Shown: positions 39,519 through 44,269 of the stretch, piece by piece
Layout of the letters: each line of letters starts with the position of its first letter
Numbering within the stretch: the first letter of the stretch is position 1
DNA from: Elusimicrobiota bacterium
GTDB lineage: Bacteria; Elusimicrobiota; Endomicrobiia; CG1-02-37-114; XYA2-FULL-39-19
NCBI GenBank assembly: GCA_018816525.1
Contig: JAHIVV010000063.1
Location: 1 to 45,765, forward strand
Reading direction: 5' to 3'
DNA: 45,765 bases
Program-made: the position numbers and the translations under genes
Notes under the pieces: generated by a model
Seen by the model: the letters and a program-made list of their open reading frames with translations, nothing else
What the model was told of the DNA's origin: nothing
Databases searched by the model: none

Positions 39519-39671
39519 TCAGCATATTAACGCCTTTCCGTTAGTTATGATTTTTTCTAAAAGTAAATCGGTTTCTTGCGCATTCATAAAAATCTGAAAG
39601 CCAAGAGCGGAAAATCCGGAAAGGAAAATAGAAAAATAAATAGCAGGTAAGTAAAATTTGATAGTTTTCAT
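39519..39671 (-). CDS. Small membrane protein, 50 residues, possibly a gene remnant
   Basis: The ATG (39671-39669) overlaps the stop of the upstream PilX-like gene (TGATG), so it would be translated by coupling. It has one hydrophobic segment, FYLPAIYFSIFLSGFSALGF, then QIFMNAQETDLLLEKII and a short tail. The 'fLSGfsALgfQi' pattern resembles the first helix of membrane-embedded spermidine-synthase-like proteins, so this may be the N-terminus of such a gene joined to another end by deletion. Equally, it may be a genuine small pilus-operon protein. Confidence 0.4.
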   Translation of the reverse strand: MKTIKFYLPAIYFSIFLSGFSALGFQIFMNAQETDLLLEKIITNGKALIC

Positions 39672-41194
39672 CAGGGCCAAGTAGTAGAACTTGGTGGAAT
39701 CTCTTGCCACAGTTTGCGGACTAAAACAACATTTAATGCAGGTAGATCTAGGGAATCATCATAGAAAATAATAAAACTTTCAGAGCAATCATGTTCGGAT
39801 GTATTGCCTACAATCCAGGCAGCGCCAAAAATATCCATAGGGTTGTCGATTTGAAGATTTTTACCCACATAAAGGAACCCTTTTATACCGATATCAGTGC
39901 TAGACGCATTGGGAGGATTATGCCCTCGGGTCCAGGTTTCGCCGCCAAATCTAAAAGTTTTTCTGGTTTTTTGATAGCCGTCATCGCCGGGATATTCATT
40001 TGTTGCTGAAGTGTCATAATAACTATCAACGCCTGTTCTTTGAATTAAGGTATATTCCTTGTAGGCTTCCTCCGGAATATTCCTACCGGGAGCGGCGCTG
40101 ACATCTATAAAATCATAACTAAGGTTATCCAGGGCGTTATTTTCTAGATTTCCGCGAACAATAAAGTTTCCAACGACTCCCCACCCAGCATTATAACCAT
40201 ACGGATACCCCGCCACATCTCTATCGTTGACCCAGAATACTTTGTCTCCATTGTCATCCCAGTACCAGGTACGATTAGCTAATTTAAAAGGATGTTTGAA
40301 CAAATTTTGGACATGCGGCAGACCAGAGTGATCGTTTCCCGGTTCCTTGCAAGTAGTCGCATCTACCCAGCCGCCTTCTCCTGCGTCATATACTTGCCAC
40401 CATTTTAGCCCTGTATAATTTTTCATTTTTGAACAACCAAAAACGTTTAATGTATTGATAACGTATGGGACGGTTCCCTGATAGACTGTTACATTAATTG
40501 CTGCTGAAGAACGCAACGCATCGAAGTCCAATAGCGGTAAATCAGGAACATCGTAGTCAGACCACCATTCCATATTGTCTGTATTCGGAGGATTCATTCC
40601 GTTTGTGTCTCTGGCGTAGCCTGCTTGGTTGCAAGTCACAACCTGTCTTGAATATTTTCTTGGGAAATAATCCTGCGCCGCGGCTGCGTTAGTAATCTCT
40701 ATATTACCATGCGACATTATGGGCCCCCAATGGACAGAGAACGCGTTTCCCATGGTTATGGTGTCTTTAGATATAATTGCTCCCGGAATTACCTGGTTGC
40801 GGAATATTGCTTTTATTGCCCGTATTTCGTTTAATGTAGAATCTTTGCCTTCAGCAGTAACTGTTACTTCGCATGAACTAGGTCCTGAAGTGAATTTAAT
40901 TCTATAAATTCCGCCGGAAATGTCGGTATACGTTGTATCAAAATTATAACCATTTGTAATTTTACCTTTAGAGGCCATGTCCCAGGTTGAAGTTGAACTT
41001 TTAAGTTTCCACATGCCGCGGTCAATACCAGTTTCAGCTAAGTTGAACGCCACGGACTTTCTCTGTTGTTTTACTGACCATTTTGTTTGATTTTGGGTCC
41101 AGTAAATAAGTCCGGGTATGATTACCGTTAAAAACAGCATTATGGCAATAACGATAGCTAACACTTGTCCTTTATTTCCTTTTTGAGTAAACAT
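39671..41194 (-). CDS. PilX-like pilus assembly protein
   Basis: 507 residues. The N-terminus (GQVLAIVIAIMLFLTVIIPG) has the membrane helix of PilX-type pilus proteins, and VAFNLAETGIDRGMWKLK is the 'AEaG...' continuation of that family. The large remainder, rich in Trp, Tyr, Asp and Asn, has no recognised domain and is probably a surface-exposed beta-rich part. It lies 14 nt downstream of a prepilin gene and is part of a three- or four-gene pilus operon. It is far longer than PilX of model organisms (about 160-200 residues). Confidence 0.72.
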   Translation of the reverse strand: MFTQKGNKGQVLAIVIAIMLFLTVIIPGLIYWTQNQTKWSVKQQRKSVAFNLAETGIDRGMWKLKSSTSTWDMASKGKITNGYNFDTTYTDISGGIYRIKFTSGPSSCEVTVTAEGKDSTLNEIRAIKAIFRNQVIPGAIISKDTITMGNAFSVHWGPIMSHGNIEITNAAAAQDYFPRKYSRQVVTCNQAGYARDTNGMNPPNTDNMEWWSDYDVPDLPLLDFDALRSSAAINVTVYQGTVPYVINTLNVFGCSKMKNYTGLKWWQVYDAGEGGWVDATTCKEPGNDHSGLPHVQNLFKHPFKLANRTWYWDDNGDKVFWVNDRDVAGYPYGYNAGWGVVGNFIVRGNLENNALDNLSYDFIDVSAAPGRNIPEEAYKEYTLIQRTGVDSYYDTSATNEYPGDDGYQKTRKTFRFGGETWTRGHNPPNASSTDIGIKGFLYVGKNLQIDNPMDIFGAAWIVGNTSEHDCSESFIIFYDDSLDLPALNVVLVRKLWQEIPPSSTTWP

Positions 41195-41208
41195 TTTATA
41201 TCCCCCCG

Positions 41209-41700
41209 TTAGTTCATAACTCTAACTTTTTCAGATGCCATATGCAGCGCTTTGGATTGTAAATCATAGAGATTTTGTTCTAAAGTAAAAGAGACTGATA
41301 TAAGGGCCATATCATATGATTGAGGGAAAGCGAACGCCACATAGCGCAAATTTTTTGTCATAATTTTCGTATAAATATTTTTAATTCGTGTAATATTTCT
41401 GCCGTTTTGATAGTAAGTAACACTGCTGTTATCTATAGTAACGAAATTTATACGCGAATAATACGGCTGACCAGACAAAGAATCAATTGTTATTGTGCTA
41501 TTTTTTGCCTGTCTTAAATCTTTTGAGATAAAGTCCATTAATATTCTTGATTCTTGTTGTAATTCCAGAGTTACCGTATTAATTTTATAGAATTTGTATA
41601 TTTCATTAATCATCTTAGGAAGCCCCAATGATAAAATACCTAGAAGAGCAACTACGGTTAATAATTCAATCAGGGTAAAACCATTTTTTTTCTTTACCAT
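41209..41700 (-). CDS. Type IV prepilin-like protein (PilW/GspJ-like)
   Basis: 163 residues. The leader MVKKKNG is followed by the prepilin peptidase site and methylation helix G-FTLIELLTVVALLGILSLG (Glu at +5). The body fits minor pseudopilins of the PilW/GspJ type (LQQESRILMDFISKDLRQA). It overlaps the upstream giant prepilin gene by 7 nt, so the two are translationally coupled. It is a minor pilin likely to sit in the priming or tip complex. Confidence 0.88.
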   Translation of the reverse strand: MVKKKNGFTLIELLTVVALLGILSLGLPKMINEIYKFYKINTVTLELQQESRILMDFISKDLRQAKNSTITIDSLSGQPYYSRINFVTIDNSSVTYYQNGRNITRIKNIYTKIMTKNLRYVAFAFPQSYDMALISVSFTLEQNLYDLQSKALHMASEKVRVMN

Positions 41701-44198
41701 GGAAAATCGACTCCCGAAGTAGTTTGTCCCGGTTGAACGGTAATATTAGCGATAGAAGAAGAAATTATAACAATGTTTGAACCATTAAAAGTCGGATAAT
41801 AAGCATATACCTTATAGCTTAGCGAGCCGTTGCCTATAACTTCAATAGAGTATGTCCCGTTTTCATTGCTGTTTGATACAAAATAAGGATCACCTGAAAG
41901 TGTGGCTATGCTCAAAGCGGGCGGGATCCCGGCAATAGTTTGAGTGCTTGCGATAAGTAATACTCCGGTTTTAATTAGCTCACCTGAAGATGTAACCGTT
42001 CCAGCAATTTTACCTAAGGTGCCTGTGATAGTAAATGTACTAGAGAAAACTGAACATCCTATAGTAATAGTGACAGTGCTTTTAGAGGGAACAGATGATT
42101 CTTTTGAACTTAAAATTGGTTGGATATAATATACACCAGTAGATAAATTTATAATTTGAAATCTACCGTCTGTTTCAGAAATACTTTCACCTCTTGTCCA
42201 GCCATCTACATCTTGCGCTGTGAAAACTATGTCCGGGACAGGATTTACGCCGTCTCTTGTGGTTAAGCCCGTAACCTTTCCTCCTTGGGAAAGGGAAAAA
42301 TCAATTCCGGAAATAATCTCTCCCTGTCTTATTTCAATATTGTCTTTGGTTGCTGTAATATAGTTCGGATTATAATTTTCAGGGTTAGCAGTAACATTAT
42401 AAGTTCCGGTGCCTAGTTTTATAAAATAATACCCAGCGCTATTCACATATTCTGTCACAAAACCAGCATTAACTTTAATAGGCGGCGAGATTACATTGCC
42501 AAGCGCGGCAGTTACTTTTCCGCTTATATACCCCTGGGACATATTTTCTGATAGAATAAATGCGCAAGTGCAGCCGGCAACTTCCCAGACCGGGGTAGTA
42601 GCGCTGTTAGGAACACCGACTAAACCATTTGGAATTATTGTAACATTAGAAATTTCTAAACATTTATCACCCGTTGATATTATTACTATCCAGGTGCCCG
42701 TAGCAACTGAAGTTAACTCAAATTTACTTGCGGGAGGGGAACCAACAAGACGTGCGACAGTTCCGGCTGAAAGGCCGTCGCTTGCCGTGACAAACGCTTC
42801 TACCGGAACACCGGAAGCAACTGGTTCTGAGTTAGAACTATTTTTTGGCGGATAAATTAGAGGTTTGGGAGATATAAAATCTATATTGTTGTTATTTGAA
42901 TCATAGCATCTGCCAATTCCTTCAATTACCTCTGAAGGACGTGACCTGCGGACAAGTTGTTCTCCTTTTTCAAAACCACTGAATTCATTTTTACCATCAG
43001 TTTCAAAAATCGGGGCTGTTTTTGCGCCGCTGTTCCAATCCCAGCCGACTACATCTATCCAGGAATTATCCGAGATATAGTAAATACCAATGCCGCCGCA
43101 ACCTATATTGTCATCTTCTCTGCATTTAATAGCATTAGTGGTGCTACTAAATACTGCATCTGCAGTTCTTGTAATACCACAAGCATTTACTGTAACAGTA
43201 TTTGCGATTAAATAATAACATTTTGATTGAATGGCGGAGGAAATATAATTTATTGGAATGTCCGCCGGCGCTGGCAAATCTTGTACCTGATATTTTAATC
43301 CGATTATTGGAATAGAACTAATTGCAATTTGCCAGGTATAAGTTGTTGGGTTAAAAAGTTCTACGTATTCCTGATTAGTCCCGGCAGTCTCTGTACTTGC
43401 CACCACCTGAGAAATAACAATGTGGTCATTTAACCACACCTCTCCAACAACTGTTCCTGAACTCATAGGTGCTAACTCGAAATTTATAGTGGTTGTCTGG
43501 CTTGGTCCGATTGAAAGCGGTATGCTCTGTGAAAAATATCCCCAGGCAGAAGCCATAATCGTATAATTACCATTTAATAAAGTAATGGCATAATTCCCTG
43601 AGGTGTCAGTCATATTCATCCAAGTTGCATTCTCAACTATTGATACAGCGGCATCTGGAATATTTGTTGAAGTACCTGCTTTTTTTACATTACCATTAAC
43701 TACTGCATTATACCTTTTTGTATCAGGATTAGCAGCTACACTGCGTATTTGTATCTTTTTTTTACTTCCGCCTTCCCTCCAAACAACTGTTGCTGTAATA
43801 AGTTTCATCCCTGCTTCAGGTGTCGTTGGAGAAAAGGTTTGTAGTTCTCCGTTTATTTCCTGAACTACTTGAACATAAGTCATTCGTTCAAAAGATATTC
43901 CGCCTTCTAAAATGGTTTCACGCGGATAATATTGTGTATCATAGGGAATTGCAGGTGAAAAATCAGTAAAATAAGCAGGTGAAACAGTGATTAATAGTTT
44001 ATAATATGAAAGTGATTTTAATATGTTAATTTTTTCCTGCGCAAGGTTTGTAGCTAATGTTTTTGCCTTAGAGCTGTACAAAGCTTTTGAAATATTACCA
44101 AAAGTTCCAATATAGACAAGAATAACCGTAGTTAATATTACCAAGGCCACCATTATTTCTATTAAAGTGAAACCTTTTTCACAATTCTTTTTCATCAT
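41694..44198 (-). CDS. Giant PilV-like prepilin with repeated beta-sandwich and lamin-tail-like domains
   Basis: 834 residues from the ATG at 44198, chosen by an AGGTG site (a GTG three codons earlier is possible). Prepilin motif: KG-FTLIEIMVALVILTTVILV. The body resembles PilV/GspI up to about residue 165. It then carries a carboxypeptidase-regulatory-like domain (PDAAVSIVENATW, DTSGNYAITLLNGNYTI), a lamin-tail-like domain (VISQVVASTETAGTNQEYVE, then LFNPTTYTW, and WIDVVGWDWNSG), and at least two further regulatory-like repeats near the end (GYISGKVTAALG, GKIAGTVTSSG). Minor pilins are usually 150-250 residues, so this one probably displays an adhesive or binding module at the pilus tip. Confidence 0.82.
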   Translation of the reverse strand: MMKKNCEKGFTLIEIMVALVILTTVILVYIGTFGNISKALYSSKAKTLATNLAQEKINILKSLSYYKLLITVSPAYFTDFSPAIPYDTQYYPRETILEGGISFERMTYVQVVQEINGELQTFSPTTPEAGMKLITATVVWREGGSKKKIQIRSVAANPDTKRYNAVVNGNVKKAGTSTNIPDAAVSIVENATWMNMTDTSGNYAITLLNGNYTIMASAWGYFSQSIPLSIGPSQTTTINFELAPMSSGTVVGEVWLNDHIVISQVVASTETAGTNQEYVELFNPTTYTWQIAISSIPIIGLKYQVQDLPAPADIPINYISSAIQSKCYYLIANTVTVNACGITRTADAVFSSTTNAIKCREDDNIGCGGIGIYYISDNSWIDVVGWDWNSGAKTAPIFETDGKNEFSGFEKGEQLVRRSRPSEVIEGIGRCYDSNNNNIDFISPKPLIYPPKNSSNSEPVASGVPVEAFVTASDGLSAGTVARLVGSPPASKFELTSVATGTWIVIISTGDKCLEISNVTIIPNGLVGVPNSATTPVWEVAGCTCAFILSENMSQGYISGKVTAALGNVISPPIKVNAGFVTEYVNSAGYYFIKLGTGTYNVTANPENYNPNYITATKDNIEIRQGEIISGIDFSLSQGGKVTGLTTRDGVNPVPDIVFTAQDVDGWTRGESISETDGRFQIINLSTGVYYIQPILSSKESSVPSKSTVTITIGCSVFSSTFTITGTLGKIAGTVTSSGELIKTGVLLIASTQTIAGIPPALSIATLSGDPYFVSNSNENGTYSIEVIGNGSLSYKVYAYYPTFNGSNIVIISSSIANITVQPGQTTSGVDFPW

Positions 44199-44269
44199 TC
44201 TTAACACCTGTTTAGTAATCTTATTAATTAAAATTTTGGGAACAACCCGGGAAAAGCATTCACCAATTT

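Follow-up and report, generated by a model that had tools for sequence, protein, structure and literature searches.

Modular pilins, in which a pilin module is joined to a domain that is not specific to pili, number more than 1,200 in a published survey, where they fall into 264 architectures and PF13620 is one of the common modules (PMC8179133). Those studied include PilB and PilC of Streptococcus sanguinis, CofB of enterotoxigenic Escherichia coli (ETEC) and ComZ of Thermus (PMC8179133, PMC9934059). As a rule, the capping K subunit of I-J-K complexes lacks Glu5 (PMC9934059). In Myxococcus, several minor pilin/pilY1 clusters exist, some of them apparently acquired horizontally (PMC13190605). 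Minor pilins were left out of the phylogeny of the superfamily, being too short and divergent (PMC6668835). Here, a three-gene operon of an Elusimicrobiota bacterium is described. It lies on the minus strand (44207-39671) of contig JAHIVV010000063.1, which is analysed over its entire 45,765 nucleotides (the window; contig C63 of our genome G000) and belongs to a 1.6-Mb, 98.6%-complete genome. In I-J-K order, its open reading frames (ORFs) encode a large prepilin, a small prepilin and a PilX/GspK-type subunit. The operon probably specifies the complex that primes a type IVa-like pilus and forms its tip; the I subunit would carry a conserved stalk or effector arm.

The PilB and PilC subunits of the S. 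sanguinis PilABC tip are similarly made of a pilin head followed by one or more C-terminal modules, in a tip that has an I-like partner and no PilY1 (PMC8179133, PMC9934059). In S. sanguinis, however, the von Willebrand factor A or lectin modules are borne by other subunits and the I-like PilA is small, whereas here the I-type subunit is itself giant, carries transthyretin-like (TTR) and lamin-tail (LTD) modules and is kept across a diderm phylum. GspI-GspJ-GspK of the type II secretion system (T2SS) and FimU-PilVWX of the type IVa pilus (T4aP) share with the present set the I-J-K gene order, a Glu5 that I and J have and K lacks, and a bulky K. They differ from it in that the I subunit reaches about 840 residues here, several times the usual size, while no H subunit was identified and K matches no curated family. 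As with the Myxococcus PilY1 cassettes, there are several versions and signs of horizontal movement (PMC13190605), but a pilin takes the place of the beta-propeller PilY1 as large tip component, and the variable region is in the K-like subunit. CofB and ComZ are likewise minor pilins with large additional beta-rich domains; however, no LTD or TTR repeats are described in them, CofB works with CofJ, and the beta-solenoid of ComZ is linked to DNA uptake (PMC8179133). What differs from known modular pilins and I-J-K tips is thus the giant I subunit, the LTD that it carries and its end-to-end conservation across the phylum. The statement, made in a first-pass annotation of the sequence, that such a design is not seen in model pilus systems went too far because modular pilins (S. 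sanguinis PilB/PilC, CofB, ComZ) were already known. No paper on this large pilin was found among the open-licence literature.

The large I/PilV-type prepilin (41694..44207, minus strand) counts 837 residues from a GTG at 44207 or 834 from the ATG at 44198. Its class III leader and alpha1 helix (residues 1-62, 44022..44207; ...KNCEKG/FTLIE..., cut after G) match PF07963 (N_methyl) at 2e-7 in a Pfam scan; the processing-site Gly is found in 40 of 41 homologs and Glu5 in all 41. Both the large and the small prepilin show the short charged leader, Glu5 site and hydrophobic alpha1 of class III prepilins. Residues 63-160 (43728..44021), conserved and situated between alpha1 and the first TTR domain, with strands in a low-confidence model, would form the globular head of the pilin. 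TTR1 (residues 168-246, 43470..43706) is a carboxypeptidase-regulatory/transthyretin-like domain: PF13620 (CarboxypepD_reg) matches the protein at 1e-17 in three stretches and is above cut-off in all eight homologs scanned. TTR1 is also the best-modelled part, resembling the transthyretin-like domain of human carboxypeptidase D (TM-score 0.88 on the target, root-mean-square deviation 1.3), and a profile search retrieves 5aq0 at 1e-5, in agreement with the structural match. From the structure model this part only was used, and Foldseek matches elsewhere were disregarded. Downstream of the LTD, TTR2 (residues 551-636, 42300..42557), TTR3 (637-727, 42027..42299) and the C-terminal TTR4 (728-837, 41697..42026) align with TTR1 at hhalign probabilities of 97.8, 96.1 and 92.8%, respectively. 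The middle segment 456-550 (42558..42842) is a weaker assignment, with 86-88% to TTR1 and TTR3 and 2-6% to TTR2 and TTR4. After the head, the profile comparisons give the order TTR1, LTD and about four further related beta-sandwiches. Hence the fusion of a prepilin to a carboxypeptidase-regulatory-like module and to repeated beta-sandwiches, already suspected at first pass, holds, and the protein is a modular pilin by virtue of both PF13620 and the LTD.

The LTD (PF00932; residues about 260-390, 43038..43430) is divergent. In the window copy it scores 15.5 bits against a Pfam cut-off of 34.3 bits, and it was not recovered for the large prepilin in the search of its own genome. Six of the eight scanned homologs show a sub-threshold LTD at the matching place, and four orthologs exceed the cut-off at the same position, near residue 250 (G206, 40.2 bits; G100, 36.3; G223, 35.7; G108, 35.5). 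When residues 247-420, as a 41-sequence profile, were compared by hhalign with 30 canonical LTDs, the probability reached 98.5% with an E of 2.8e-15; for seven other segments of the large prepilin, used as controls, it remained below 1%, which rules out a chance match. At the level of the family, the lamin-tail-like module proposed at first pass is therefore genuine despite the weak score of the window copy. Elsewhere in the sampled genomes, open frames of about 9,000-10,500 residues contain LTD domains, often paired (G126:C11, G120:C35, G122:C2, G002:C8, G058:C38 and others); these are possibly giant surface proteins.

The small J/PilW-type prepilin (41209..41700, 163 residues) starts at an ATG overlapping the stop codon of the large prepilin gene. 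It matches PF07963 at 6e-8 and gspJ at 8e-6, mainly through its N-terminus, with subfamily scores below equivalog cut-offs; calling it a PilW-like minor pilin was reasonable. The third gene (39671..41194) encodes a 507-residue subunit that would be of K/PilX type. No Pfam or NCBIfam family, hence neither PilX N-terminal nor GspK, matches it, no such Pfam match occurs in six homologs, and no relative was retrieved by PDB profile search. The PilX-like label keeps the support of a hydrophobic N-terminus, of a Gly at the processing site (40 of 40 homologs), of the absence of Glu5 and of the third place in the operon, and lacks that of the curated families. By alignment column, Glu5 is present in 41 of 41 I and 48 of 48 J sequences and in none of 40 K sequences, as would be expected of a K that caps the complex. 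The length of K varies from 410 to 577 residues, with a variable middle region, and several stretches are occupied in only 31-80% of the sequences. Beyond K, a short ORF on the same strand (39540..39670, N-terminus MKTIKFYLPAIYFSIFLSGFSALGFQI...), outside the pilin set, shows a weak 12-residue match to the start of the ORF that trails the operon in locus L039; it may be a relic of a downstream gene.

A phylum search found the full-length large pilin in 122 of 295 sampled Elusimicrobiota genomes, representing 61 of 90 genera. With profiles of the three proteins, J and K were found to adjoin it on the same strand in all 48 copies inspected, some GC-rich loci requiring a six-frame profile search. 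Since the genes flanking the triad vary between families, the triad is the conserved unit. Chance ORFs are excluded because full-length homologs occur throughout the phylum; the same conservation rules out a sequencing or assembly artefact, and frames that are open in nearly all homologs rule out pseudogenes. The large pilin is found in none of the 41 family f4 genomes among 60 relatives, though many of these carry prepilins. The named relatives found are Elusimicrobia records; a contig-collection search matched three such records only, with a low sensitivity for this family that makes occurrence beyond the phylum possible. Among 41 homologs, the pilin head has a mean pairwise identity of 0.37, compared with 0.32-0.40 in the TTR domains (0.40 for TTR4, the highest in the arm) and 0.35 in the LTD, with occupancies of 0.94-1.00. 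Thus, the arm behaves neither as a swapped module nor as a hypervariable one. In three loci (L082, L085 and L092), two divergent three-gene tip operons stand side by side, in opposite or in the same orientation. A second minor-pilin cluster, absent from the window, lies directly beside the tip operon in L045 (2248-8313, genome G001) and L089 (9244-13465). It consists of a 1064-residue prepilin (48.6% identity between the two over 1059 residues, N_methyl being the sole Pfam match) and a 332-354-residue pilin. One 1.4-Mb, 85%-complete genome, G047, has 70 N_methyl prepilin matches, far above all relatives.

Within the genus, the window genome and G001 carry different versions of the tip at a shared chromosomal site. 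The flanking PASTA, RlmN, DUF1015 and phosphoesterase genes are 69-73% identical between the two and keep their order, as against 34% for I, 36% for J and 25% for K. Each of the three window subunits groups with family f5: the large pilin shares 47-49% identity with f5 and 34-35% with G001 and G002, whereas RlmN follows kinship (72% to G001, 59% to G002, 44-47% to f5). In a quick tree, the grouping of the three family f1 pilins is rejected (p-AU 1.7e-6); this group was defined once the full tree was known. Horizontal replacement would explain the contrast between flanks and tip simply, but differential loss of an old duplicate would fit as well. The latter alternative, in which ancestral duplicate operons were lost differentially (hidden paralogy), has a little under an even chance; it concerns the history of the operon and not its mechanism. 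The paired divergent operons of the three loci cited above argue for it. It must, however, accommodate an RlmN closest to G001 next to a large pilin closest to f5, for which horizontal replacement accounts simply.

The genome encodes a T4aP machine. PilM, PilN, PilO and an AMIN-secretin of PilQ type form one cluster, PilB-, PilT- and PilC-type genes another, and PilD is beside a major-type pilin; prepilin peptidase and motor genes are thus present together with the regulatory and lamin-tail domains. In locus L095 (8610-9089, minus strand), a 159-residue lipoprotein-like ORF without Pfam match occupies the PilP position between PilO and the secretin. Only four prepilins of the genome score above the N_methyl threshold, the operon accounting for two, so that a further set of minor pilins is not apparent. 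Two secretins only were found, one linked to PilM-N-O and the other in a Tad-like locus. Read by eye, this locus (L096, on contig C8) appears to encode a second system for type IV filaments, with secretin, large ATPase, TadB/C-like and TadE/F-like proteins.

By analogy with the known HIJK systems and from the present data, it can be proposed that PilD cuts the large I, the small J and the Glu5-less K, which would assemble in the inner membrane with K uppermost. The I-J-K complex would then start a filament that PilB and PilC extend through the secretin and PilT retracts. The C-terminal arm of I, of about 675 residues (TTR1, LTD and about four TTR-like sandwiches), would project from the tip as a conserved stalk or effector, exposed there along with the K ectodomain. 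Several points weigh against this scheme. The pilin operon is not adjacent to motor genes, and the machine used, the type IV pilus (T4P) or the Tad system on C8, is therefore assigned from its type. The K label has no hidden Markov model support. No H subunit (FimU/GspH) was identified, the prepilins on contigs C17 and C38 resembling major pilins by N-terminus and size. Finally, full-length models from four-row alignments are poor (mean pLDDT 36 and 34).

The arm of I could also be an adhesin, its TTR and LTD modules binding carbohydrate, protein or DNA in place of PilY1. An adhesin function is plausible, but that the arm fulfils it is a tentative proposal, somewhat less probable than not. In its favour, PF13620 has been assigned a carbohydrate-binding-like fold where it occurs in modular pilins (PMC8179133), two congeners have unlike tip operons at a shared site, and PilY1 (PF05567) has no match in the genome or in 60 relatives. 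It should, however, be noted that control genomes were also silent in the scan of the relatives, so that the absence of PilY1 is not firm. Moreover, the arm and the head are equally conserved across the phylum, and the modules of the arm occur in nearly all homologs, unlike swapped effector modules. As the length-variable region is in K, binding specificity, if any, would more likely reside in K than in the large pilin. The I-J-K order and GspI/GspJ-type N-termini, parts that T4P and T2SS have in common, would also suit the pseudopilus tip (GspI-J-K) of a type II-like secretion pathway, but such a tip instead of a surface pilus is improbable, given that no secretin other than the PilM-N-O-linked and Tad-like ones was found, that a PilT-type ATPase adjoins PilB/PilC and that subfamily scores are under equivalog cut-offs.

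Returning to the pilus tip complex, a broader proposal may be formulated, although it is rather unlikely to hold in full: in much of this diderm phylum, a PilY1-free tip would be built from a giant I pilin with a conserved LTD/TTR arm and a variable K cap, and the three genes would be exchanged together, like alleles of a cassette with a fixed chromosomal position. Because the alignment of the I subunit, of about 840 residues, spans its full length across the phylum, the evolution of the tip, including its replacement, becomes traceable directly. The data may also point to a PilY1-free tip in diderms. Since flagellar machinery is lacking in Elusimicrobiota genomes (PMC11257099), pili are probably a main contact of these bacteria with surfaces and other cells.

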